Source of the DNA: Rhizomucor pusillus
Lineage: Eukaryota > Mucoromycota > Mucoromycetes > Mucorales > Lichtheimiaceae
Direction: 5' to 3'
Assembly (NCBI GenBank): GCA_900175165.2
Contig: FWWN02000467.1
Location: 1-64,000 of the forward strand
Length of the DNA: 64,000 nt
Shown here: positions 1-54,585 of the stretch, piece by piece
How the letters are laid out: every line of letters starts with the position of its first letter
Numbering within the stretch: position 1 is the stretch's first letter
The notes under the pieces: generated by a model
Told to the model about the DNA's origin: nothing
Database searches by the model: none
What the model saw: only the letters and a program-made list of their open reading frames with translations
Translations under genes and position numbers: made by a program

Positions 1-301
1 TCTTCACTAGATGAATGTAAGTTTTCCATCGATAAGCCTACATGAAACAAGTGCACTGACTTTATAATTATAGGAGAGGTGAGAAAATAGAAGGCTACTT
101 CTACGTTAAAGCCAATGGCTTATCAATTCTTGTACTATGCGACCTGGGGCGTCCTTTTGCGCTGGCTCTGCTTACGGGCTTGCACGAATATCGCAAGCGT
201 AAGTCGTCAANTTTCAGTAGATTACAGTGGTCCAACGTTAATTCGATTTCTGTAGGCGCAAAATGTAGCCAACTAATACAAGCTGTCCGTTGGTTTTGCT
301 A
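1..301 (+). CDS. 3' end of an unidentified gene (partial)
   Basis: An open frame runs from 79 to a TAA at 299-301. It can be joined to bases 1-16 by an intron at 17-78 (GTAAGT donor at 17, AG at 77-78), giving a continuous reading frame. The peptide contains GYFYVKANGLSILVLCD and a basic stretch HEYRKRK. I do not recognise the family. The N at 211 falls inside this frame, so one residue is unknown. The stop lies only 75 bases before the next start codon. A possible GTAAGT at 199 has no usable acceptor close by. The call rests only on open frame, splice signals and protein-like composition. Confidence 0.35.
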
Positions 302-36748: not shown

Positions 36749-39700
36749 ATGGAAAACACGGCAACCGAAAACAATGTAAGATTTGCATCGATACGTCCGG
36801 AATTATACAATGCAGAATCTTACCCATTTGATAGCCGTCGCAACTCGTCGACGCCCAAACGTCGAAGCCTCCTGGTAAGTAGCCCTTTCATTGACTTTCT
36901 TACACCTAGCCAAGTCTAAAGCAATACAAACCCGTTGACAAATAGAGAACGTCAAGAATGATAGCAACGATGTTAACAACAAACAAGGAGAAGTAACAGG
37001 AGCAGGAGGGGAAAAGCAACCTTCGGGCGATGCCATGAAGAATGAAATTACCAAGGAGCGCACTGGTAGTGACACGAAACAGGTTTGTGGCAGCATCGAG
37101 TCACCTGCAAGATATAGAGTGATTTACCTTATTCTTCCGCGAAGCGCACGTTGGCGCTTATCAAGCCAGATGCCATGGGCCGGAAAGCTGATATTATCCA
37201 AGCTATTCGAAGCTCTGGATTTATTATTGCCCAAGAACGCGAAATTAAGCTGACAAAGGAACAGGCTCAAGAGTTTTACAAGGAGCACAAAGGTAAACCT
37301 TTCTACGACGATCTCACACAATGGATGAGCAGGTGATTATATTCCGGTGCATGGCCCCGCATCATCTGTCCTGTTCTAACCTAAACATTTACGTGCTGCA
37401 GCGCGCCCATCTATGCCATGGTCTTGGAAAAAAGCGACGCCGTGACGGCCTGGCGCACCATGATGGGCCCAACTGATGCAAAGAAAGCCAAGGAGACCGA
37501 TCCAAAAAGGTAAACGAGAGCCTGCTCCTGGCGGGGATAGGGTGGCAAATCCTGATGATTGAATACCTTTTGTAGTATCAGAGCACTATACGGCACCGAC
37601 GGCTCCCACAATGCCGCTCACGGTAGCGACTCTGTAGAGAACGCTCAGCGAGAAATCGCGCTGCTCTTTAGTGGTGCGGACCAAGGTCCCGACAACGTTG
37701 CACAGCATCAGAACAATAAAGAACAAGAGAGGAAGCAAGCTACCGAATACATCGTGCCTGCATTGGCCGTCACAAACAAGTCTGAAGACAAGACGTGCAA
37801 ACCTGAAGAGAAAGAGAAGATTCAAAAAGGCCAGGATGAAAAAGAATCCGCAGCTCAGGATGACAAGAAGGTGACAGAGTCTACCGCTGCAGCAGTTACT
37901 GAGAAAGAAAAAGGGAGTCCGCCATCTGAAGTCAAAGAGGCCCAAAAAATTCCTGACACCACCGTGATACCCGACAACAAACCTAACGTCCCCCAAGATA
38001 CCACGCCACCAAATGATTCTAAAGATGGTTCTGACCTCCAAAAGCCAAAGCCAACGGATAAAAACCAACCGAACGACCAAGGAACGAATAAAAAATCCTC
38101 AGACAAAAAGGATACCGATGTCAAAGTTGCATCTTCCGAGGAAACCACAGAAGCCACCAAGAACAATAACACTGGGGCCCCACGACAAACCGTGGATGAA
38201 AAGAAACTAGCCGACGCATCCCAAACTGCCAAAGGAACAGCGGATGATACCAAGGAGGAACATGGATCTTGGTGCAAAGATGGAAACAAGTCAGCAGAAA
38301 AGCTTGAACCCGATGAAGAAGTCGTGGACGCAAATAAGAAAGACGCAGCATCGCCATCTGCGGAAGTGGAGAAGGACCAGCCTCAAGACGTTAAAAAGTC
38401 TGTTCTTGGAGAAGATGCAAGGAAACAGCATGAATCAGAAATTACATCAAAAAGCAAGGAACAAGACAAGCAGCCTGTCGCTCTAGAAAGTACAGTAGCA
38501 GCCATATCGCCACTAGCAGCCCCTGATAAAGAGGATGCTTCTTCACCGACAGACAAGCCCAACGAGCAGACCAAAGGCATGGGAAAGGAGGCCGAGCCAG
38601 GAAAAGCTGCCGAGAAGGATACAGCTGCCGACAATAAGGATGCAGCAGTCGAGAATACAGATAAGAAGAACGATGAGGAAAAGTCAAGCGAGCAAAAAGT
38701 GGCCGAGGCAGCTGTAGCCAAAGATCAAAAGACAACTGTGGATGCAGAAAAGCATGTCATGGATAAGGTGCAAGAGACAGCTAAGAATGAAAGCCCAGCT
38801 AATGTCCAGGAGATACAGAAACAAGAAGCTCCTCAAATTAAGGAAGCTATAGCGGAACAGAAACAATCGTCGAATGAACCAACTAAACTTGCTGTAGAGG
38901 ATACATCCACGACTGCCGTCGATAACGGCGATAAAGCTGATTCTGACCAGAAGAAAGAGATAGTAACGACCAAGGAAAGCGCGCAAAGCGTGCAAACTCA
39001 ATCTCTCCCAGTAACAGCAGATCAGAAGGCGAGTGCCAACTTGAGCAGCGACAAAGCACCGCAAAAGACGGAATCCGTTGGAAACGGAAAATTTACCTCT
39101 GGCAAAAAGGAAGATCGATGGCCATTCAACAAGCAGGACCAGCAAGCACTTCCAGAGAAGAAGCCGATCGAAATCAAGCGCCAGCAAGGCAGCAGCGTCA
39201 AGGCTGCACTTGATATCTTCAATAAGGCTAGCAACGCGGTCACAAAAGCCGCTGCCGATAATAAGACGAAGGGTTTCATTTCCACTATCAACAAAAGCAG
39301 CGAGAAAGAAGCCGACAGAAGCTCTGTAAAGCCACCCGCCACAGATGGGAAACAAGATGCAAAAGACAAGACATCCGAAGACACTGCAAAGCAGGATGCT
39401 GGGAAGGATACCACGCCCGCCGATAAGCAGCAACACCAACAGCAGCCTCCCAATGAAACAGAAACGAAGCAGGAGTCCAAGACTGCTGAGCCTATCCAAG
39501 AGAAGAACACGCCTGTCAAAGAACCTGTAGCTAAGGAGATCGCGAACGTAGATACCAAGCAGTCTTCAGTCGAAGTTGAAGAGAAGTACAACGATCATCA
39601 GCAAGAGCAAGACAAATCTAGTGATATGCCTACTAGCAAAGAGGCTAAAGAGCAGAAGGACCAGAAAGCTACTGGTGATACTGAAAAGACACAAGCCATT

Positions 39701-40321
39701 GAAGGAGCTGAAGCCATCAAAAAGGAGGAAGTGAAGAAAAAAACTTCCAAAGATTTGACCGACAAGAAAGCAAAAGATAGCGCATCCAAATTGGGCCGCC
39801 CTGCAGCAGCAGCAGCTGACAAGCCAGCTACTGCCCGTAAATCCCACAATGGTTCTTCATCTCCTTCGCCGCCTTCGTCGACTCAGCGTCAGGTTAAGAA
39901 GCCAACCGCCGGCCATTCTCCTACTTTGATTAACAACACCGCAAAGACATCTGTCGCTTCCACGAAAAAAATGGCAACATCATCAGCAGAGAAACCCAAA
40001 GTCGTACCCAAAGTACCATCTCCACCCAAGAAGGAGCAAGAAGAGTCAGTCAAAAAAACAAGAGCATCGAGACGCGACTTCCTTGCTCGACTGACAGCAC
40101 CTACTGCATCGAGTGCACGCAAGCAGGTGCATGCCCAGGAATCAGTAGACAAGCATTCTGTGAAAAAGCCAGAAGCAAAGGCTACTACTATTGCCGTCAA
40201 GACTGCAAAGTCTCGAATTGTCAAAGCTGGAGATAGGTTGCAAAGCAAGGAAAACAAGGACGAAACAGCTACTACTCCAGCACCTCAACCTCAAGGTCAT
40301 CGTGGAAATGGAACAAACTGA
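36749..40321 (+). CDS. NME5-like nucleoside diphosphate kinase domain with giant charged tail
   Basis: Five exons (36749-36874, 36948-37082, 37145-37332, 37402-37509, 37576-40321) give 1100 residues. Residues 88-215 are a nucleoside diphosphate kinase domain with every catalytic residue in place: KPD lysine, the FY tyrosine, the WRTMMGPT arginine and threonine, the IRALYG arginine, and the NAAHGSDS asparagine and His201. The wording AKETDPKSIRALYGTDG resembles group II (NME5/NME8) more than housekeeping Ynk1. The remaining 885 residues are a Lys/Glu/Asp/Gln/Ala-rich disordered chain with occasional ordered-looking patches (KEDRWPFNKQDQQ, KGFISTINKSSEKE, RRDFLARLTAPTASS). Intron 1 must end at the second AG of TAGAG to stay in phase. 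The tail's antisense open frames are shadows. Confidence 0.82.
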
Positions 40322-41026: not shown

Positions 41027-44000
41027 CTATTGATTGTAAGTGTCTTCATCGTCGCTGTTATCTTCATCTTCATCTTTTCTTGTGTTTGGATGGAACCAAT
41101 GCTGATATTTCTTGCCATGCTCTAAATCGTCCTTATTTTTGCATTCGTATCCATAGGAACATACGCGTCGACTTGAAATGGCTGCAGGAAGATATCTCTG
41201 GGCATGCTTGGACAGGATCATACTGGCAATATGCTGGAAACATGAACTGCAGACTTTGCTGTCGCGTGATAAAGGTACCAATGGACTCCACATCTGCGCG
41301 ATATCTTGGCGGGATTGACAGAATGCATCGAGCTGGCTGTCATAGACGTCTTGAGGCTTTCTACCGCTTAAAGTTAATGCAAACTTGACAAAGTTTTGCT
41401 CGACGCTCCCGAGACCATCGTACGAGACATGATCGAGCTTGTATTCACAGAGCTTCTTGTTGCCGTAAGAAGTTTCAGTTTCGCAGAGAGCACAGTAGTC
41501 AAGATTGCGAACCAGAACAAGATATCGAGTCCTGACCTGAGCTTCAGACTGCACTATATATTCATTGTGATTGAGGAATATATAGCGGTCGTTGTATTGC
41601 TCGAGATACTCGAGAGGGCCCATGGGTATCAGTACACCACGTTCATCATAGACTGCGTTGATTGGATCAGGCGAGTTTTGACCAACACCCTTGATAGACA
41701 TGTGCTCGTCTTTGTCGAAATTGCCTGCATAACAGTCAGTCATCACGCACTCCTTGCCCAGTGCCACCTCGCAGAGGAGAGCAAGTGAGAAAGCATCGCG
41801 TTGCCTGCTTGAGTTATAGCGGTTTCTTGTCCCGGCAAAGTTGCTGTATAGGGATCTGCTTTGATACGAGTATTGGATAGATTTTGAAAACATATCAGCG
41901 AAGTAAATTCCTTCTCCAAACATTGCACCCTAGAATTTAGACATGTTACTTGCAAAATCCTATTTCAATACCGTTCAAAGTCATGCTTACTGTTCTTTGG
42001 GCGATTGTTGGAGAAGGGCGTAAACCTTGTCGTAGGATACCCATAAAGTTTTCCGGCTTTGATCCGTGCCAAAGTAGTTTGCGATTTTCGTTAGTAGCAT
42101 ATTTTGCATATCGATCGGCTTCGCCCTGTCGGTCCACTGCAAACAGGTGCACAATTTCGAAATTTCCGTCATCTGCTGTAGTTGTCATATATTTGTTGAC
42201 CATAGAGTATTCAGCAGAGCCAGGTCGGATCTCAGTGAGTTGGCATGCCAAGGAACGGAAGCAATAGTCGAGAGGATGAATTTCAGAAGCACGACGTTTG
42301 GCAGCCAAGATAACGTTGCTTGAGAATGTCAGATACGACAGATCATTGAGACGGGCCCTTTCCTGTGCGATTGCCGAAATGCTGCTCAGAGCTGTTATTC
42401 CTCTCTCCTTGTCGCTGCTTTTTGGCAGTATGCGATAATACTTGGTACTCAATGTCACAAGCTTGTGTGCAAGTTCTGGAAGAGAAAAACGCTGTATAAG
42501 TTTGGGCGTTCGGCATGAACAATGTGTGCATCAGTATATACTTGCCTCTCTTTGATTTTTGCTTGTCTTCTTCGCTAAGCGTATCGAGTTTACGCATCTT
42601 GACAGCTTCGTAAATCTCGCACGTCTTTTCTATCTCCTGGAGAATCTCAAATGCCCTGTCGATAGACTGTTGAGGGATTTGACCTGCCGGAATATCGATT
42701 TGTAGGTTTCGGAAACCCTCGTTCAAAAGTCCAAAGTTGCAGATAACTTGCATAGCTTCATTGATGGCAGGAGCTACCTTGGACTTCACGGCAGTATCCA
42801 AGAAATTAAAGTTCTTGAGGATAACTGGTTTCCTTGGAGGTTTCGCGTGTATAAGTTCGAAACGACCGGGTTTTCGCACAAACTCGTTTCGGTCCTCCCA
42901 GTGATTGCCAGTTTTGGAGCGAAAGATGGACTTGAACTCTGCCACTGCTTCTGCCTTGGTCAAGTAAGGCGTCTTTTGATGCATGCCTTCCTCACCAAAG
43001 GCTCCCCATCTAGTCCAAAGGACGTATACATCAAGTGTTCTATTGTAAATGAGAGACAATTTGTAAAACCTATAGGACTCAAAATTTAGAAATCCAGTTA
43101 AGTTAAAAGTTTCATTTTTTCCTTACATGTTGTCGTTATAGCCTCCATAACCAATGCTCAATCCAATTTTCTGGAGCATAATATCATAAGGTTCACCTTG
43201 CTCATCACGGGTTATTTCGCCAGTCTTGTCCATATTTGCATAGGCATCAATTTCGTATTTTTCTTCTTCGACTATGTCCATATGAGAGTCCTCGTTGTCA
43301 GCGGCAGCAAGTGCCTCAGCTTCTAGTAGTTCACGTTCTTCCTCGGCATCGTTCTCGACTGCTTGCAAGGAGATATATTCGGTATCCATGCTTAGACTTT
43401 GCACGGCTGCTTCTTCATGGGTGGTAGTGTTATGAGTAGCCGGTGAAGCACCTAGTTCCAAAAGCGTCTTGTACATCGTGTCACGCTGGCGAGCTGCAGC
43501 GTGATCAACGGCAGTCAGGCCTATATATAAAGTATCATAACATTAAAATATGTCAATAAATAAGAACTTAGGTCTATTACCTTCGTTATCCGGCATCTGA
43601 AGCAGTTTTTGCCACACGACTGATGCCTGACAGGCAATGTACTTGAGTACCTCCGTATTTTCATACGAAAATCGAGACGCAACCAAAAAGTTGACGATAT
43701 TCCTGCGGTTCCCGTCTGTTGCAAGCCAATCAATAGGGTGTTTCGACTTGTCATTCAACGTTTGAATCAACTTGAAATCGTTCTTTGCCGCAGCGTGGAA
43801 AACGGCGTTCATCACGCCTCCAGAATCGATAGAGAAATTTTCATCTTTGGTACGACTCTTAATATTGGGATTGGCACCTTGAGCCAGTAATCGCTAAGTA
43901 AACCACGGTTAAGATCACAGCTTACATGTTGGCGGATTTTTTAAAACGCTACCTCTAGAAGAATAATGTTGCGCGAGTGTATAGCAGACTCCAATGGCGT

Positions 44001-47000
44001 CATTCCGCTGATACTGTCCACGATGTTTACATCCGGAGACATATTCAGCACCATGTGCTCATATATAGGATCCTAAACATCATTATGTTAGACTATAAAG
44101 AGTCGCATTTAGATTGTTTCTTACACATACCCGATAATCTTGATTCTTAGTTTTATCAAACAGATAAGAGTAGAAAATTGTCCTTCCAGTAGCCGGATCG
44201 ACCATATCCAGATTTAGATCACGATGGCACAATAGTTTCAGATTATCTTGCTGTCCAGACACAGTGCTGAGATGCAAAAAGCATGGGATTCCATTCCACG
44301 GTGCAGCATTGGGTGCGTAGACGTTTGGATCCACGCCATTTTCGATCATGAGCTAAGACAGTGTTGGTTACATAAAGCGCTAAGAAAAGAAATAAGCGAT
44401 ATCTTGTGCTCACCTTCAAAACCTTGTCGGTCGCCAGGAATACCGGATGGATGGTCGCAGAGTATAAGCTGCCCGATGATTCCTGCTTTTTTGAGATGCG
44501 TGATAAGTACCCGAGATCAAAAGACATGTCTAGATATTACTAACCATCGCTTCATCATCCAAATATGGGATTGCAGTGTCATTTTTCTTGTTGATCGAAT
44601 AAGTCAACGTAGACGGAGTATTGATATCGGCGCCCGCATCGATTAGAAGCTAAGATAGATTGCGCTTAAACCAAGCCGGGAAAAAGTACAAAAGTCTGTA
44701 GATTTACCTTGAGGATGTTATACAAACTCTTGGCACAGCAGTACATCACGGCCTGCGCATGCCCAGAAGTATCACCATTGCTATTCTTGAGCAGGATATC
44801 CACCATTTCGGTATTCTGGTGCCGCACAGCCAGAAGCAGTGCACTCTTGCCTTCAGGTCGCGTTCCATGATCCACCTTTGCACCAGCTTCCAAAAGTGCT
44901 TGAACGCATTTGAGATTGTTACCAGATACTGCATACCATAGCTCGGAGGTACGGTTATAGTCGGAAACGTTGATACGTGCGTTCGAAGCAATAAAATGTT
45001 TCAGTAACACAGTCTGACCGTGCATAGCTGCATAATGCGATGGAGTGCGTCCTTCAGAGTCCTGCTCAAATCCGAGCCCTAATGCAGTTGCCTTCATGAT
45101 AAACTCGGGTAGATATTCTTGGTCCCACATATCACTAAATTCAAAATGTATGTGTAAGTGAGAATGACAAATTTTTCGAGTATCAATATGTCTTACTTAC
45201 AGATCAAAAGGCTTAAAATTTGCTATGATATGCCAGAGATTTTGATTTTTGCCTTTGATGTGTCCAGACAGCATCTTGTCCTCTGCAGAGTTCATGATGA
45301 TTTCCGCGATATGAAACTTTCCAGCGCTCAGTGCATCATGGATCCGTTCTGCGTTAATAAACGGTGAATTAGTTATAGCTGTTCGGTATAGCTCATCGTC
45401 AAGAATGTTAACTTACCAAGCGTATTGTCTCCTAACTCCAACACACGATAAGCCACGTTCATTAACCCTTTTGATAAACTGTGCTTCAAAGGCGTAACTT
45501 GCTGACCATCCGCTAGAGTTATTGTATCCGTGAACTGTGCTCCGTGCTCACATAGCATAATGCAATAATCGACGTGGGTGTAAGTTAAAGCAAGCTGCAA
45601 AGGAGTATTCTAGGTTCAAACAAAGAAATATCAGTTATGCTCATTTATAAAGGCAATTCTTCAGCTTACCTTGTCCAGATCTTGAGCGTTGATATTTACA
45701 TTCTTATCTAGGATCAATGTCGTGCAAGAAAACGCTCCAGCGCAAGCTGCGTAGTGCAGAGGTGTGCGACCAAATCGATCAGGAATATCATACTGTATAT
45801 CAGGTTGGCTTGCAAGGAACATGATGATATCAATAGGATCCGTTTTTCCTTTGGCTCCAACTTCCTTCTCCCATTTCATGCTGGACACGGTTTTAATAAG
45901 CTCCATATCGTTTGCATCTGTGGCTTCTTCCTCTGCGTTTTGTGGTTTTGACTGCTGCTTTTCCAGTATCGTCTTGAGGATGGCATCTCGTAACCAAGAG
46001 TCGGCTTCCTCGTCATAACCGCCGTAGCGAGCTAATTCCTGTCTGACTTCCTCCTTGATCTTTTCCTCGGCATCGTTACTCTCCAAGTATCTCAAGACTT
46101 TTGGTCGAAGCTTCAGAGTAAAGAACATATCTGGTATATCAAAAGGGCCGGAAAGTGCAATGTGCAACGGGGTACGACCAATGCTGTCCACTGCGTTTAC
46201 GTCCGCACCTGCTTGGAGGAGTAGCTTCTCGGTTCGGAAGGAAGCATTCGTCATATTCTTGGTTTTTTCTATTGCCATATGGAGGGCAGTGTAGTTCTCC
46301 TTTGTTGTCACAGCATCGACATCTGCGCCGGAATCAAGAAGTAGCTTCACTAGACGATGTTTTTCTGACCAGACAGCATAGTAAAGTGGGAAATATCCGA
46401 GATTGTTCTTGATATTGGGATCTGCTCCGGCTTCAAGCAACATTTCTGTAATCTCTGGATATCCAAATCTGAGGGCGTAAGATAAAGGCGGTGATCCTTG
46501 AGAGTCAACCAGGTTGACGTCTGCATTGTGCTTGAGAAGAACTTCCACAGCGAAGCGATATCCCCCTCCAGCTGCCATAGACAATGCAGTCCTTCCCTGC
46601 TTATTCGTCTTATCCACGTTGCATGGGGAGCTCTTGGCAAGTATTTGGAAATAGCTTGAAACGACGGCTTCGTCCGTGAGCGTGCAAGCAAGAATAGCTG
46701 CGGTTTCCATGTCTGACGCTTACATTGTAAGTATCTTCTGCAAAGTTTACTGACAAACAGCCCTTACCCTTGTTAGCAACGTCGTGATTAATCGGATATC
46801 TTGAAAAGTGTGCCATGGTATCCAAAAGCGCCGGTACTTTCAAGCGCATAGCCTTCATGAATACAGTATCGCCATCAGATTTTTCGTAGATTGCGTTTGG
46901 ATCTGCACCCATTTCCAATAGATACTGTACGATAGTAGGATCGATTTCGTTTGCAGTTTTTTCGGATAGAGCATCCATGGCATACATAATGGCAGATCGT

Positions 47001-50000
47001 CCAGTCTTGTCACGTTTGTTAACCCCGTCGGAAGATGGGAATGACTCCTTCAAGATTTTCAAGGCTGCAGTATCCAGCAACTCTGCTGCCTTCATCAGGC
47101 ATGTATATCCGTCCTTGTTGGGTATACAGGGATTGGCGCCGTAAGAAAGATACTTCTCAATAGCCTTGTATAGTATGTCGCCAAAGTCCGGCTTGTGAAT
47201 ATTGAAACATTTGCTGCTATGCTCTTGATATTGAAGAGTATGATACGTGAGATATTCCTTCACGGAGAACGATTTGAGATAGAAACCTAGCAGCATCGGC
47301 GTGCTTCCCAGTTTCTTATCAACTTTGACACGTAAGTTAGGATCGCAACCAGCAGAAAGCAGAAAATCTAGCAATGCGACATCTTGTGATTTTGCCACTA
47401 TGAGGAAAAAGAAAGGTTAAAATCGATATTCTCAAGGAGCATCCTTTGCTGTCAGTCTTACCAAGATGAAGTGCAGTGTAACCAGTTTCAGCCGGGTATT
47501 CTGACCTTTTGCGCTTGGGATTCTCCTTGAAAAAATCTCGAGGTAACTGTACGGTAGCATTCATGTCTGGCCGGAATAAATCAACTATTCCTTTTGCAAG
47601 TTTGATCTATTTATCTGTCATGTTAATCGTGATCTGCATCAACTAGATAGCTTTTTTACTTACCCAGCTATCGAAACGGAAGACGAAGAAAGCATCTTCT
47701 GACTGCTCAGGAATGTCAAACATGTGCCCAGCGTGTCCATATGCATTCTTGATCTTAAGCTTTTCGGACTGGACAAACTGATATTGTTGTTGGACCACTG
47801 TCTTGATGCCGAGTTGCAGCGGAGTGTAACCATCGTTATTCGTAGCATTGACCTAGAGCACCTATTCATCAAGGATGGATCGTAACAGTCGAACATTGTA
47901 GGTACTAACATTTTCCGTAAGCAGTTCTCGTGCGGGGAGTTCGCCCTTGTAGTTCAAAACCGCATCCCAAACGCTGAAAACTGCATCATAGATGCGTTGC
48001 CTTCTCAACTTCTCCATTTCATTCTGCGTACGCATGGCATCCAAGCTGGAGGCCGCCGTAAAAAGGTAATGGAAGAAATTATTACCATTGCAGCATTTGG
48101 CCGTCCAGTATTTTGCACCATGTTGTAATAGAACTTGGATGATTGGGTGGTTATTGGCCGCTATAGCGACTGCTAGGGGCGATTCACCATCGGCGTTGGG
48201 GATATCTGGATCTGCACCTGCAGCTAGGATGGCACGCGCTAAAGTCTGTTGTAGTTGGATACCCTCTTGATCATCTAGCTCAAGACATATTTCCTTGTTC
48301 GGTCTTAATTCATAGCCTTCAGGACGTTGTGCCAAGTAATATGTTGATCTTGCCAAACAATGCAATACGGTGTCTCCGTCGACGGTTTTTAAATTTGGAT
48401 TGGACTTTCGAGATAGAAGCAGTCGCGCCTTGCGAAGGATTTGCTCTGCCTCCAACTTGGTTTCAGCTTTTTCAGTAACACAGCTGTGGAGCATAGTGCG
48501 ACCCTCCTTATCCTTGAAATTGACGTCGACATCAGACCTTGTCAGGAGATAGTGTACGATGCCAATGTGGCCTTTGAGATTCGCAACAGAGCAAGCTGTA
48601 GTTCTCCATACATTTGCAGCGGCTGGATCGGCGCCGGCAAACTCGATAAGAAGTTTCAAGACGCGCAAGTGGCCAAAAGCAGCAGCGTAGTGAACCGGTC
48701 GATTGTGTGACGAGTCTGATGCATCAGAGTTGACACCTTGCTCGAGCAGATATTTGACCACGTCGTAGTGACCATTGATACTGGCAACATGGAGTGGAGT
48801 ACGTGCATATCTATCGACATACTCTGGATCAGCCTTGCCAAACTCGATCAAGGTCTTGACAGTCTCCAAGTGACCTCGCTGGGCTGCCATGATTAGAGGA
48901 GTGGCATGGTTGGGTGCATCTTCGATATCAACTGTCGCGCCGCATTCGATCAAAGCACGGCAAGTCTGGGGGTGGCCGAAGTAAGCAGCGTAATGTAACG
49001 GTCGATATTTCTGGCGAAGCAATGTGTGATCTGCATATTCTGCTGAAGGCAAAGCACCCTTAGAAAGATAATTGAGTAACGGGCGAATGTTGCGGTGTCG
49101 ACCGTAACGAGCCGCTAACACAAGAGGTGTCAATTTATACTTGTCACCCATGTGGAAATCGAATGCTTCCGATATCAGAAACTCAAGACATTCGGAAGTC
49201 ATGCTTGCAGCTGCAAAGTGAGCCACGGTGCGGCCAAACTCATCCGTTTCATTTCTTTCAGAAGGCGTTAACTGTGCATAGAACTGTTTAAGGAACTTGC
49301 TAGAGGGATGGATCGCAGAACACTCGAAAGGCGTAAGATTGGCGGCTTCAAACGCCTTCTTCAGAATTTGATTGCGACGATAAGTTTCCAAATCTTGGTG
49401 CTCTTCGAGCTATGACCGAAAGTTACTTTGCTGTAATGATCAAAGTATGGCAATATAATTGAAGGCTTACCTCCAAGACGCCAATGTGAAGATGATTGAA
49501 ACCTGTGCGATAGTTGTCACCATTTGAAAGTATCTTGTGAGCCAATGTTCTATTTCCAGAAGCAACGCAGTAGTAAAGATTCCTCTGCTTCCATGTGTCG
49601 GGGAACACCGTTTGATAAATTTCATGTACACCTTCTGGGAGTCCGGAAAGTTGTGAACAGGCAACCATAGCACCCATGTCAGCACGTCCACCAAGGTAGC
49701 GGCCTTGCTCTATTTCCAATGGATTACGACCGATGGAACGGAAGAATGCAGAGTCACCTTGTCTGTTGCCACGAGATTCATTCACTTGTCTGCATAAATT
49801 TTCTTCAGTTACCAAATATGGATCGGAAACCTGCGCAAAAAAACGTACCTTACTGCATGTCCAAAAGTCGAGCGATTGATATATCCAGTGTTGCTGCCAT
49901 ATACCTTGTATTTATCAGGCACTGACACTCGCGAATTATCATAGGGCGTTATTTCCGATAGCAATATCGCATGTCGCAAACGGTCTTTCTTCAAAGCGTA

Positions 50001-50952
50001 TGCCAAAAGATTGTCGTCAAAGAACTCAACGTCTTCTTCGAACCAATTGGGCACGCTTTGCTTGTCTTCCAGAATGGCCTTGAGTCTTTCAATATTGTTA
50101 TTTTCGATGGCTTGACGGATCTGTTTGATAGAGCAGCGCGTGCAACAATCGCTCTCGTCCACCGATGTTTCGTATTCACATGCGGATGCGGCTCGGTCTA
50201 CCTGCCGTTGCTGTCTCAATTCAGCCTCTTGTTGCTTTATAGCAGCTTTTCCACGAAGTTTCTTGACTTTAGGCGTCGATGATTTTGTCTCCGATGTCGT
50301 CTTTCGCTTCGTTCCCGGCTTGCGCGTAGAAGTTGTTTCCTCTTCATCATCATCATGTTCAAAAGAACTTGAATCGTCCGAATCCAGTTCCATAGGCTCA
50401 TGGCCCTTGAGGCGAACGATGGCACGTGTCTTGGACATTCTGGTACGTCTGACAGGCGACTCCGAAAGGTCAGAATTGTTGCCAATCGCGTAACCTGATT
50501 CCGTGCGCACGAGTTCTTGGAAAGCTGTCAAGACCCTGCTCGCGCCAAGGTCAACCTCAGCTTCCCAAGTATCTTCCGTTGCTTTGGTTCCGGCACGGCG
50601 CACAAGATAGTACATGGTGTTCTGGATTTTGTCAGATCAGCATCTGGAATCCGCCTTATTCGTGTTAACTTACTCCAACGCGCTTAAAGTCTCGAATAGA
50701 TTCGATTGGCTTGACCTTGACATTGGTTTTTGTCGACCTCTTTTCAGAAGATAGGCGTTTTTCGCGTCGCTTCAAGCTTGTTTTATTGTCCTGACGTTCC
50801 GGAACAAACTAAGGAGACAGTTGAATATAACGTTAAAGATCCGACGAGAATTGTATTGTTACCGAGTCACGCAGACGGTCTGTTGCTGGTCTCTTGATTC
50901 TTGACGAAGAGCGAACAGGCTGTTTTTTCTTGGTGTTGGAGCTACGTGTCAT
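41027..50952 (-). CDS. Giant ankyrin-repeat PARP with chromo-like N-terminus and C-terminal PBZ finger
   Basis: Twenty-one exons in phase (50863-50952, 50674-50808, 49849-50621, 49471-49789, 47910-49409, 47664-47852, 47462-47606, 46768-47397, 45670-46712, 45417-45609, 45201-45348, 44708-45134, 44545-44649, 44414-44482, 44131-44352, 43953-44072, 43581-43893, 43127-43520, 42546-43069, 41991-42475, 41027-41929) give 2908 residues. Order: basic N-terminus; chromodomain-like fold (about 62-114, EDTWEAEVDL); basic/acidic linker; some two dozen ankyrin repeats (about 230-2150); WGR-type domain (RWGAFG, 2292-2297); PARP regulatory helices; ADP-ribosyltransferase domain with His2583, Tyr2617 and Glu2731, the triad for poly-ADP-ribosylation from NAD+; CxxC pairs at 2754/2757 and 2835/2838; and a PBZ finger (C2865, C2871, H2879, H2885). 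Intron 19 has a GC donor (GCAAGT). A nuclear scaffold-enzyme role is inferred; nematode PME-5 shares the ANK-WGR-PARP core. Confidence 0.92.
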
Positions 50953-51265: not shown

Positions 51266-52349
51266 CTACAGCAAAGTTTCACCGAGGCAGCACCGTGCCA
51301 AGGAGCAACCAACTTGAACAGTTTGGAATACAGCCTTTTCATCTTCGAGCGACGGATTCACTTCCATTATATCAGCTGCTACCAGCAAACCAGTTTCTGC
51401 CAAAGCTTCACAGATGTAATGACCTTCTCTGAATGTCAAGCCTCCACGAACAGGAGTTCCCTGCATTAAAAGATAAGCATCTGTTATTTTCCCTTATCGG
51501 CGCCAACTTCATATTTTATCTTTACTAACCGTGCTTGGTGCCACTGACGGGTCCAAAGCGTCAACGTCAAAGGAAAGATGGATAGGCAGGTCTCGATTGG
51601 GATTCACGTGGTCAAGTGCCATGTCAACCACCTTTCCAATTCCCCACTTGTCGACATGGTGCATGGTAAAGGCCTTGATGTTGAGTTTCTTGATAATCTG
51701 TTTCTCAAAGTTATCAAGGTCCCGCAGGCCAATATAGACAAGCTTGTTTGTCTTCAGTAAAGGTTTGACCCAGATGAAATCGGGATGCTCTTCTGCTATG
51801 CCGGTAAGGAAACTGAGAGGACAGCCATGAATGTTTCCGGATTCAGTGGCCCCGGGTGTGTTAATATCCTACATGATATCCGAGTCATCCCAAGTTGAGT
51901 TTCGCTTCCAAATATCAGTTATATATCGATACACTTACAGCGTGAGCATCCACCCAAACAAGGCAAGCATCAGGATGAGCACCGAAGACACCAGAGACTG
52001 TAGCCAGCGCGACAGAGTGGTCGCCGCCCAGGGTAAGGACAAAGTTGCCTGCCTTTGCGCGCTCATAAATCTGCTTTGATACGTGCTGGGTCACCGCAGA
52101 GACATATTTGGGCTGCTTCAAGTTCAACACATCTGGATCCGACTCAGGGCGCAGTTGAGTGATGTTCTTGTTGGCTTCATGCTCAACCTGCCATCCCATC
52201 TCCTTGAGCTGCTCGGCAAGGCCAAACTCGACCAGACGAAGCGGTCCTTCTTCAACACCTTCGCGAGGCTGACCGCCGTTGAAAGGAACACCCACAATGG
52301 AGACCTTGTTCGCAGCAAGAAATATGTAGTTTGGTAGTTCAACGGTCAT
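51266..52349 (-). CDS. CAR1: Arginase
   Basis: Three exons on the minus strand (51939-52349, 51530-51868, 51266-51460) give 314 residues. Arginase splits arginine into ornithine and urea. The binuclear manganese ligands are all present: His111 (GGDHSVAL), Asp134/His136/Asp138 (VDAHAD, split by intron 1) and Asp238/Asp240 (SFDVDALDPS). Substrate-binding GNIHG and the EVNP motif near the C-terminus are also intact. No mitochondrial presequence is visible, so it is probably cytosolic as in yeast. With DUR3 17 kb away it covers urea production and uptake, though the two are not adjacent. Confidence 0.96.
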
Positions 52350-52481
52350 ATTCGTTTTAGTATTTTCAGTTAAGTTACAGTATTTAAAAAAGGGGTAACA
52401 AGTGTAAGGAAGGGCAGAGACGCTTTTTATCGATCCGAGGTGTAGTGCGTAACCGTGTGAAAATTCGACTTCAGGAACCAA

Positions 52482-54585
52482 TTAAACTCGTGCCTTTTTG
52501 AAGTAGAGGAAAAGCAAAAAGATAAAGATAGCCAATTTCTTGAGGGGACCCTTCCATGCCTTGAGCTTGAGACTGGTTGGAGACGTAATCATGAGCATGC
52601 GGAGCATGCCCATGCGGTTGGAAGTGTATGGAGGGTAGCGAACTGCCATTAAACTCTCCATATTGAGCTTCTTGCCCATGACTGACCGTTCATGTGTGAA
52701 AGTACGAAAAGATCTGGGACCGTGATAGTTTCCAAGGCCGGAATTACCAACGCCGCCGAAGGGCAAAGCATATTCTAAGCACAAGTTCGTCATGAGTCAT
52801 GCCAATATGGAGCACTTTCCCTTTATGCTACATACCGGCTTGGTGCATTAAGCAGTCGTTAATGCAGACACCGCCAGATTGGGTATTATCCAAAACTGAC
52901 AATGACATATTAGTCACGGCCTTCCGAGCATACATCATGACTTACTTTTTTGGGCGAGCTTCTTCTTGTTGGTGAAGGCATACAGCACGAGAGGAGGATG
53001 GCTGGATATCAAATATAGAGTTTAGACTTTCCCACACTTACGCTTCTAGCGTCTCAACTCACTTTTTGTTGATCATATGGATGGCATCATCCAAATTCTT
53101 GTAAGGAATGACAGGAAGAATAGGACCAAAAATCTCATCGCCCATCAGAACTTCATCGTCAAACTTGACGTCGGTAACTAGAGTAGGAGCGATGTATCTC
53201 TCTTCGCGATCATAGTCACCACCAACAGCGATAGCACCACTCTTGCGGTTGTTCAGCATGCTCATGATACGATCAACATGTCGAGTAGAGACTATTCTGG
53301 CATAATCCTTGGATTGCTTGGGGTCAGGACCAAACCATTTGTTGATTGTCTTGCGGAAAGCTTCTGCAAAGGCATCCATCTTATCTTCGGGAAGCAAAAC
53401 GTAATCTACGGCAATACAGATCTGGAAATGTTTCAACGTCAGATAATCGCTTATATACCTAGCCCGTTTTCCTTGTATCGATCTTACCTGACCGCAGTTG
53501 TAGAACTTGCCAAAGCCAATACGGTTTGCGACAACCTGCAAATCGGCGTCCGGAAGGATAACGGCAGGTCTATTATCACCGGTATCTATGAGAACGTTGC
53601 TTCTGCCTCAATTACGGCAATACTTACGATTTGCCACCCAACTCCAACGTGACACCAGCGAGGTGTTCCGCAGCCGCACGCATGACGATCTTGCCAACAT
53701 TGCTGCTTCCAGTATAAAAGTAATGGTCAAAGTGGTATTTCAAAAGTGCAGTGGTCTCTTCGACGGCTCCGTTCACGACGCGGTAGCATTGATTATCGAG
53801 ATATTTCGGGAAAAGTTCGGTGATCAAGGCGGCAGTGTGGGGCGATATCTCAGATGGCTAATGATACACGAAATTTTATAGTTACTGTTGTCCCACAGAG
53901 TTTTATTTTAACCTTACCTTCAAGATGACCGTGTTACCACCGGCGATGGCTCCTGCCACAGGCACAAGAGACAGCTATTATGAAGAGTTAATTACTCTTT
54001 TTATACAATTAGCCTCAACGAAACATACCTGGACAGGATAGTTCCAGCAACCTGTGTAATTCGAGTTAGAAACCTTGGATAGCTCTCACATGCTCAATTT
54101 GCTGCTCACCAATGATTAAGACAGCTCCCAAAGGTTCTTTTCGGATGACAAGCTCTTCCATGGCATTCATTTGCATACGTGGCTTCACCTTCTCGTCTTT
54201 GGCAAGAGTGTCGAGGTTCTATAACGTCCACCGTCCATCAGTCTAAGCGTACAAACGACTTTGAAGTGCTGTCATACTCACGTCAAGGAAGTAAAGACAT
54301 TCTTCGAGCACTGGTGCAATGTCACCACTCATTGCCTCCATGCGGGGCTTCCTCATATCCTTTGCCATCGCCTCGTAGAATCGTTCCTCATTGTCCTTGA
54401 CGAGATCGTACAAGCGTTGCAGTTGCTGTTTACGGAAAGCCAGACTGCGTGTTTTGCCTAGAGGAAGTATCTCAGAATTTCATGAATTGGTGCAAGTATG
54501 ACATTTGACAAATACCAGTGAGAAACACACGACGGACCAAATGTACGCTGTCTTCCAAGGATTCGGGGGAAGTGTAAGTAAGCAT
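52482..54585 (-). CDS. HFD1: Membrane-anchored fatty aldehyde dehydrogenase (ALDH3/Hfd1 type)
   Basis: Eleven exons (54516-54585, 54282-54457, 54110-54218, 54029-54051, 53918-53974, 53628-53857, 53488-53569, 53063-53421, 52946-53001, 52836-52895, 52482-52774) give 504 residues. The enzyme oxidises long-chain aldehydes to fatty acids with NAD+; the yeast homologue also acts in sphingolipid breakdown and 4-hydroxybenzoate supply. Seen are the cofactor loop [11 protein letters not shown], general base Glu217 (TLELGGKSP), catalytic Cys251 ([11 protein letters not shown]), [10 protein letters not shown] and [17 protein letters not shown]-terminal hydrophobic helix ([12 protein letters not shown]) followed by KKARV anchors it to a membrane, typical of the fatty-aldehyde branch. 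Exon 4 is a 23-base micro-exon encoding CWNYPVQ. Confidence 0.93.

Follow-up and report, generated by a model that had tools for sequence, protein, structure and literature searches.

Poly(ADP-ribose) polymerases (PARPs) of Clade 1A, or "Clade 1-ank", occur in Dictyostelium, Paramecium and fungi and carry N-terminal ankyrins followed by WGR, PARP regulatory (PARP_reg) and PARP domains (PMC2964712, PMC4245714). The fungal ankyrin-WGR-PARP core was described under this name in 2010, as ankyrins, WGR and PRD (Citarelli; PMC2964712), and ankyrin-type Clade 1 PARPs were discussed by Perina in 2014 (PMC4245714). Caenorhabditis elegans PME-5 is a Clade 1-type ankyrin PARP with a link to the DNA-damage response (PMC4245714). 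Tankyrases (Clade 4) likewise join an ankyrin array to a PARP catalytic domain, but have a SAM domain and lack WGR and PARP_reg (PMC2964712). Two other kinds of protein bear on the present study. In CHFR, a C-terminal cysteine-rich/PBZ (CRD-PBZ) module, known from structures 2xoc, 2xoy and 2xp0, sits on a ubiquitin ligase. Human MPP8 has both a chromodomain and ankyrins, and we know of no PARP domain in it.

The Rhizomucor pusillus protein described here shares the Clade 1A plan and has, in addition, a chromodomain homologue at its N-terminus and a CHFR-type tail at its C-terminus. Neither addition is mentioned in the descriptions of Clade 1A (PMC2964712, PMC4245714) or of PME-5 (PMC4245714), as far as these accounts go. 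The gene lies on the minus strand of the window, that is, the whole 64,000-nucleotide stretch of DNA analysed. A splice model built manually along consensus splice sites joins 21 exons in phase, from the ATG at 50952 to the stop at 41027, into 2908 amino acids with no internal stop.

41027..50952, minus strand: whole gene, 21 exons, 2908 aa, compared with seven relatives
Exons 1-5, minus strand, manual splice model: 50952-50863, 50808-50674, 50621-49849, 49789-49471, 49409-47910
Exons 6-10, minus strand, manual splice model: 47852-47664, 47606-47462, 47397-46768, 46712-45670, 45609-45417
Exons 11-15, minus strand, manual splice model: 45348-45201, 45134-44708, 44649-44545, 44482-44414, 44352-44131
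Exons 16-21, minus strand, manual splice model: 44072-43953, 43893-43581, 43520-43127, 43069-42546, 42475-41991, 41929-41027
50514..50712, minus strand: chromodomain homologue, aa ~63-111, exons 2-3 (Pfam Chromo 23.2 bits when excised, cut-off 25.1)
43490..49409, minus strand: ankyrin-repeat region, exons 5-18, limits approximate (Ank_2 444.6 bits, 10 stretches)
42880..43143, minus strand: WGR domain, aa 2267-2335, exons 18-19 (52.7 bits, cut-off 22)
42258..42783, minus strand: PARP regulatory (helical) domain, aa 2368-2519, exons 19/20, spanning the GC-AG intron (54.1 bits, cut-off 26.8)
41507..42218, minus strand: PARP catalytic domain, aa 2533-2749 (162.8 bits; triad motifs)
41180..41494, minus strand: predicted CHFR-type cysteine-rich domain (zf-CRD, PF17979), two C-x2-C pairs, first Cys aa 2754
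41099..41170, minus strand: PBZ-type CCHH zinc finger, C-x5-C-x7-H-x5-H, aa 2862-2885 (9 of 10 specified consensus positions)
41027..41074, minus strand: acidic C-terminal end, 9 of the 23 residues after the finger being D/E

The 20 introns measure 52-70 nt, and retention of any one of them destroys the frame. All are GT-AG except intron 19, between exons 19 and 20, which is GC-AG; there AG/GCAAGT preserves the frame and the GT alternative disrupts it. An automatic gene model gave 24 exons and 2676 aa. We rejected it because it drops conserved sequence, and the 21-exon join therefore rests on judgement applied to the DNA and on comparison with relatives. When the protein is aligned with seven relatives, one window-specific insertion of at least five residues, and no other, touches a junction: aa 1885-1901, at the boundary of exons 13 and 14. 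Because of it the protein length may be off by about 17 residues. Two further window-specific insertions both fall within exon 21, window-specific gaps number five, each of 3-4 residues, and the surroundings of junction 1 are unconserved and uninformative on the splice model. Same-strand upstream neighbours of the gene are an arginase (three exon frames) and an aldehyde dehydrogenase (51269-52481 and 53059-53607, minus strand). On the plus strand, at 37559-40321, an open reading frame has at its start the C-terminus of a nucleoside diphosphate kinase (PF00334, 32.1 bits, residues 5-38), followed by about 880 residues of Lys/Glu/Asp/Ala-rich low-complexity sequence.

In a scan of the full protein, Ank, WGR, PARP_reg and PARP score above their Pfam cut-offs, in that order. 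The earlier note, which had read a single gene of 21 exons and 2908 residues with WGR, regulatory and catalytic domains in this succession, is borne out on these points, and the single multi-domain gene is well supported. Its ankyrin array of roughly 1900 residues is there too, but this length is an upper figure since Pfam repeats cover the ankyrin half only partly. The catalytic triad is present by motif (His in LWHGS, Tyr in GIYFAD, Glu in NEYIV), and Tyr and Glu are invariant in all 31 aligned rows. The WGR motif itself reads WGA, so that break sensing may differ. A basic stretch N-terminal to the ankyrins resembles, by eye, a nuclear localization signal (NLS). No SAM domain is found in the protein at E 0.01; the presence of WGR and PARP_reg makes the arrangement the reverse of that in tankyrases. 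With ankyrins ahead of WGR, PARP_reg and PARP, the core is, judged by its sequence, of a known type, a Clade 1 ankyrin-WGR-regulatory-PARP protein. It is probably the sole PARP of the genome, since exon-by-exon searches of the 24.45 Mb assembly, which may be incomplete, returned no other PF00644 match even at E 10 and no other WGR match at E 0.001. PARG gave no genome match in a search where no control gave signal. Two macrodomain matches in the same genome (G000:C122:108247-108411 and C251:11791-11958) are possible ADP-ribose erasers or readers.

What is chiefly new here is the relation of the tail to CHFR. The first zinc-ligand Cys (aa 2754) lies five residues past the end of the Pfam PARP match, and the tail aligns along its length with the CHFR CRD-PBZ (2xoc, 2xoy, 2xp0), both by family profile and in its predicted fold, which matches CHFR chains solved with mADPr and with a diadenosine ligand. 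Profile and predicted fold thus identify the CxxC pairs and the finger as one CHFR-type cysteine-rich plus PBZ module; the finger is of the PBZ type, as had been proposed, while the CxxC "knuckles", listed apart from it, belong to the same module. Neither FHA nor RING is found in the protein at E 0.01; the module known from a ubiquitin ligase is here carried by a PARP. A hidden Markov model (HMM) of the tail matches 42 of the 43 fungal family members and none of the 73 other relatives fetched, and all eight zinc ligands are retained in 35 of the 42 tails.

The zf-CRD scores 15.7 bits in the window protein (cut-off 26.3), PF10283 (PBZ) has no match there, and none of zf-CRD, PBZ and Chromo is listed for the full protein at E 0.01; at E 1, PF10283 matches 12 of 15 aligned members, the window protein not among them, and the window tail alone reaches CHFR at E 0.31. 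The finger fits nine of the ten specified positions of the PBZ consensus, given as [K/R]xxCx[F/Y]GxxCxbbxxxxHxxx[F/Y]xH in PMC4030884. It retains the aromatic-Gly (CSYG) and Tyr-x-His positions and lacks one of the two basic ones. Only one of the 43 fungal proteins, a different one, fits the strict consensus; a relaxed pattern is found in 18 of the 43 and in none of 2000 shuffled copies of the window protein. The aromatic residue two positions past the first finger Cys, present here, is absent from 8 of the 35 complete tails, among them those of Absidia, Chlamydoabsidia and Cunninghamella. Given the sub-cut-off scores, the rarity of the strict consensus and the losses of this aromatic, the ability to bind the polymer may be reduced or absent.

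The N-terminal domain is by homology a chromodomain. A profile of 12 Mucorales sequences, made without chytrids, finds human MPP8 as its best match (E 2.3e-8), CBX7 and SUV39H1 coming next, in a range of 2e-8 to 2e-7. Conversely, Pfam Chromo matches 8 of the 12 at E 1 (best 3.4e-6), and the corresponding chytrid domain (P0023) finds HP1/CBX at about 1e-6. A family HMM built from 13 seeds exceeds 20 bits in 20 of the 43 fungal members (including seven that were not seeds) and stays at or below 5.5 bits outside these members. Several of the 23 remaining records begin downstream; in Chytridiales such as Podochytrium and Obelidium the N-terminus is present with no match to this HMM. At what we take, from HP1 and MPP8, to be the cage positions, the alignment places Arg in the window protein where MPP8 has the cage Trp, and Thr for the aromatic three residues further, so that no aromatic methyl-lysine cage is apparent. 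Among 20 aligned family rows, the cage Trp is kept in all six from chytrids and in none of the 13 from Mucorales, and Umbelopsis has Phe. The chromo-like fold reported earlier thus holds as homology, whereas histone-mark reading is doubtful because the cage Trp has gone. As the Trp is kept in chytrids and lost in Mucorales, the chromodomain itself probably goes back to an ancestor, and the lineage leading to the window protein has probably given up methyl-lysine reading.

The same plan recurs, in two protein searches, in long single proteins of Mucoromycota, many chytrids and Entomophthora; ankyrin-WGR-PARPs that lack the tail turn up in molluscs, rotifers, ciliates, oomycetes, Pelomyxa, Willaertia and others. 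A Rhizophlyctis rosea protein (P0024) has all seven domain types above Pfam cut-offs and in order (Chromo 27.5, zf-CRD 28.2 and zf-CCHH 30.3 bits, together with Ank, WGR, PARP_reg and PARP). Judged by sequence, nothing speaks more strongly for the architecture being real than this chytrid protein. In the top-scoring relative of the window protein (P0001), Chromo reaches 20.2 bits, below cut-off, and the zf-CRD and PBZ families are unlisted. The earlier note's two ends fail against Pfam cut-offs when the window protein is taken alone, a failure that the relatives overturn, and the order chromodomain, ankyrin, WGR, PARP_reg, PARP, PBZ-type finger stands. The search it proposed in other Mucoromycota recovers the same plan, and chytrids have it as well, so the protein is not unique. 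That it knew of no described protein with both ends agrees with what titles and abstract openings reveal, subscription papers being mostly outside this range: no PARP with a chromodomain or CHFR-type tail, and no instance of the whole plan. Domains of the plan are nevertheless already annotated on database records of relatives.

In a tree of 100 of the 116 rows, drawn with a midpoint root from relatives found in the two protein searches only, a single branch separates the 41 fungal tail-family rows from the rest (SH-aLRT 92), and the window protein falls among the Mucorales, grouping with Phascolomyces, Fennellomyces and Dichotomocladium (SH-aLRT 98). A Rhizophlyctis protein with BRCT and ankyrins and without the tail (P0114) is fungal and falls outside the group. 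Six proteins also outside it (P0041, P0091, P0093, P0100, P0101, P0109) have a separate, internal APLF-like PBZ motif, in five of the six as C-x-Y/F-G-x2-C-Y-R-K/R-N-P-x-H; PBZ therefore seems to have been acquired by ankyrin PARPs on at least one further occasion, elsewhere in the protein. Two ankyrin-WGR-PARPs, the only ones among the 116 proteins to fit the pattern, begin like what we take to be the histone H3 tail: MARTKQTARK, an exact copy, in a 2270-aa Willaertia magna protein (P0066) and MARTKETARK in a 3869-aa metagenome protein (P0041). On visual inspection, the N-termini of P0083, P0084, P0087, P0043 and P0047 seem to have in common a short stretch of globular appearance (e.g. LVAVYDPDDEEYQFFVCRI) that does not resemble the chromodomain and may be a further reader-type domain of ankyrin PARPs.

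How might such a protein work? The single open frame, the domain identities, the triad motifs and the homology, predicted fold and conservation of the tail are the observations at hand, and the earlier interpretation as writer, scaffold and reader is a sensible one. For PARP1 and PARP2 it is established that WGR and PARP_reg sense breaks and that the triad makes the polymer, and it is on this knowledge that we extend both roles to the present protein. We consider it fairly probable that this fungal Clade 1 ankyrin PARP, with its C-terminal CHFR CRD-PBZ and N-terminal chromodomain, is a self-reinforcing DNA-damage writer that reads its own product. A DNA break would be sensed by the WGR and regulatory domains, releasing the catalytic domain, which would make poly(ADP-ribose), presumably of polymer length, on its own protein and on neighbours. 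The CRD-PBZ would bind the polymer in cis or on an adjacent molecule and so keep the enzyme at the lesion. That the tail would read the product is suggested by CHFR, which does so (PMC4741567, PMC4030884); if the tail did so in cis and thereby held the enzyme at the lesion, this would supply the feedback. The ankyrin stack may, by analogy with tankyrase, be a docking site for partners or substrates, and the chromodomain may represent an ancestral chromatin contact whose methyl-lysine reading has gone in Mucorales.

It is also conceivable, though rather unlikely, that the tail lost PAR binding in Mucorales and now serves as a zinc domain with a structural or regulatory task, stabilizing the catalytic domain, holding it in check or binding a different partner. 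The missing basic position, the aromatic lost from 8 of 35 complete tails and the silence of Pfam PBZ on the window protein would all fit this; however, the zinc ligands are intact in most tails, CSYG and Tyr-x-His are retained in the window protein, and the fold matches ligand-bound CHFR chains. An improbable reading is that the protein, like a tankyrase, is a scaffold acting in the cytoplasm or in mitosis and takes no part in events at DNA breaks; the ankyrins would then select substrates by short motifs and the PARP domain would mark them. The very large ankyrin array and the function of CHFR as a mitotic checkpoint protein (PMC4030884) speak for it; WGR, the regulatory domain, the unlisted SAM and the NLS-like stretch speak against it, as do published trees that put ankyrin-WGR PARPs outside the tankyrase clade (PMC2964712) and one survey reporting no tankyrase in Holomycota (PMC9688111). 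Least probable by far is that an ankyrin gene and a separate PARP gene were wrongly joined. A gene model made from the DNA sequence, at odds with the automatic one and requiring a GC-AG intron, leaves room for such an error, but all 42 fungal relatives fetched are single records (1635-3659 aa), relatives align along the protein, and P0001 and P0024 have the identical core domain order within one chain.

Returning to the self-reading writer, a 2014 survey found that the distribution of PBZ follows that of PARPs in eukaryotes, with Fungi as the exception: there PBZ "could not be found" (PMC4245714). A PBZ-bearing module does occur in fungi; it is of the CHFR kind and is fused to the polymerase itself. 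As CHFR encounters poly-ADP-ribosylated PARP1 in human cells (PMC4741567), the fusion can be read as natural "Rosetta stone" evidence that PARP and CHFR reader activities belong together, and it opens a testable question, namely what a PARP gains from a product reader in cis. The fusion also draws attention to a chromodomain that has its cage Trp in chytrids and is without it in Mucorales. We suggest, tentatively, that in early-branching fungi one protein might sense the break and both write and read PAR, the result of an ankyrin PARP and a CHFR reader having fused in an ancestor, which would give feed-forward retention in cis on the lesion. R. pusillus would then have no other PARP and no other protein with such a reader, and this may be a one-gene PARP system.
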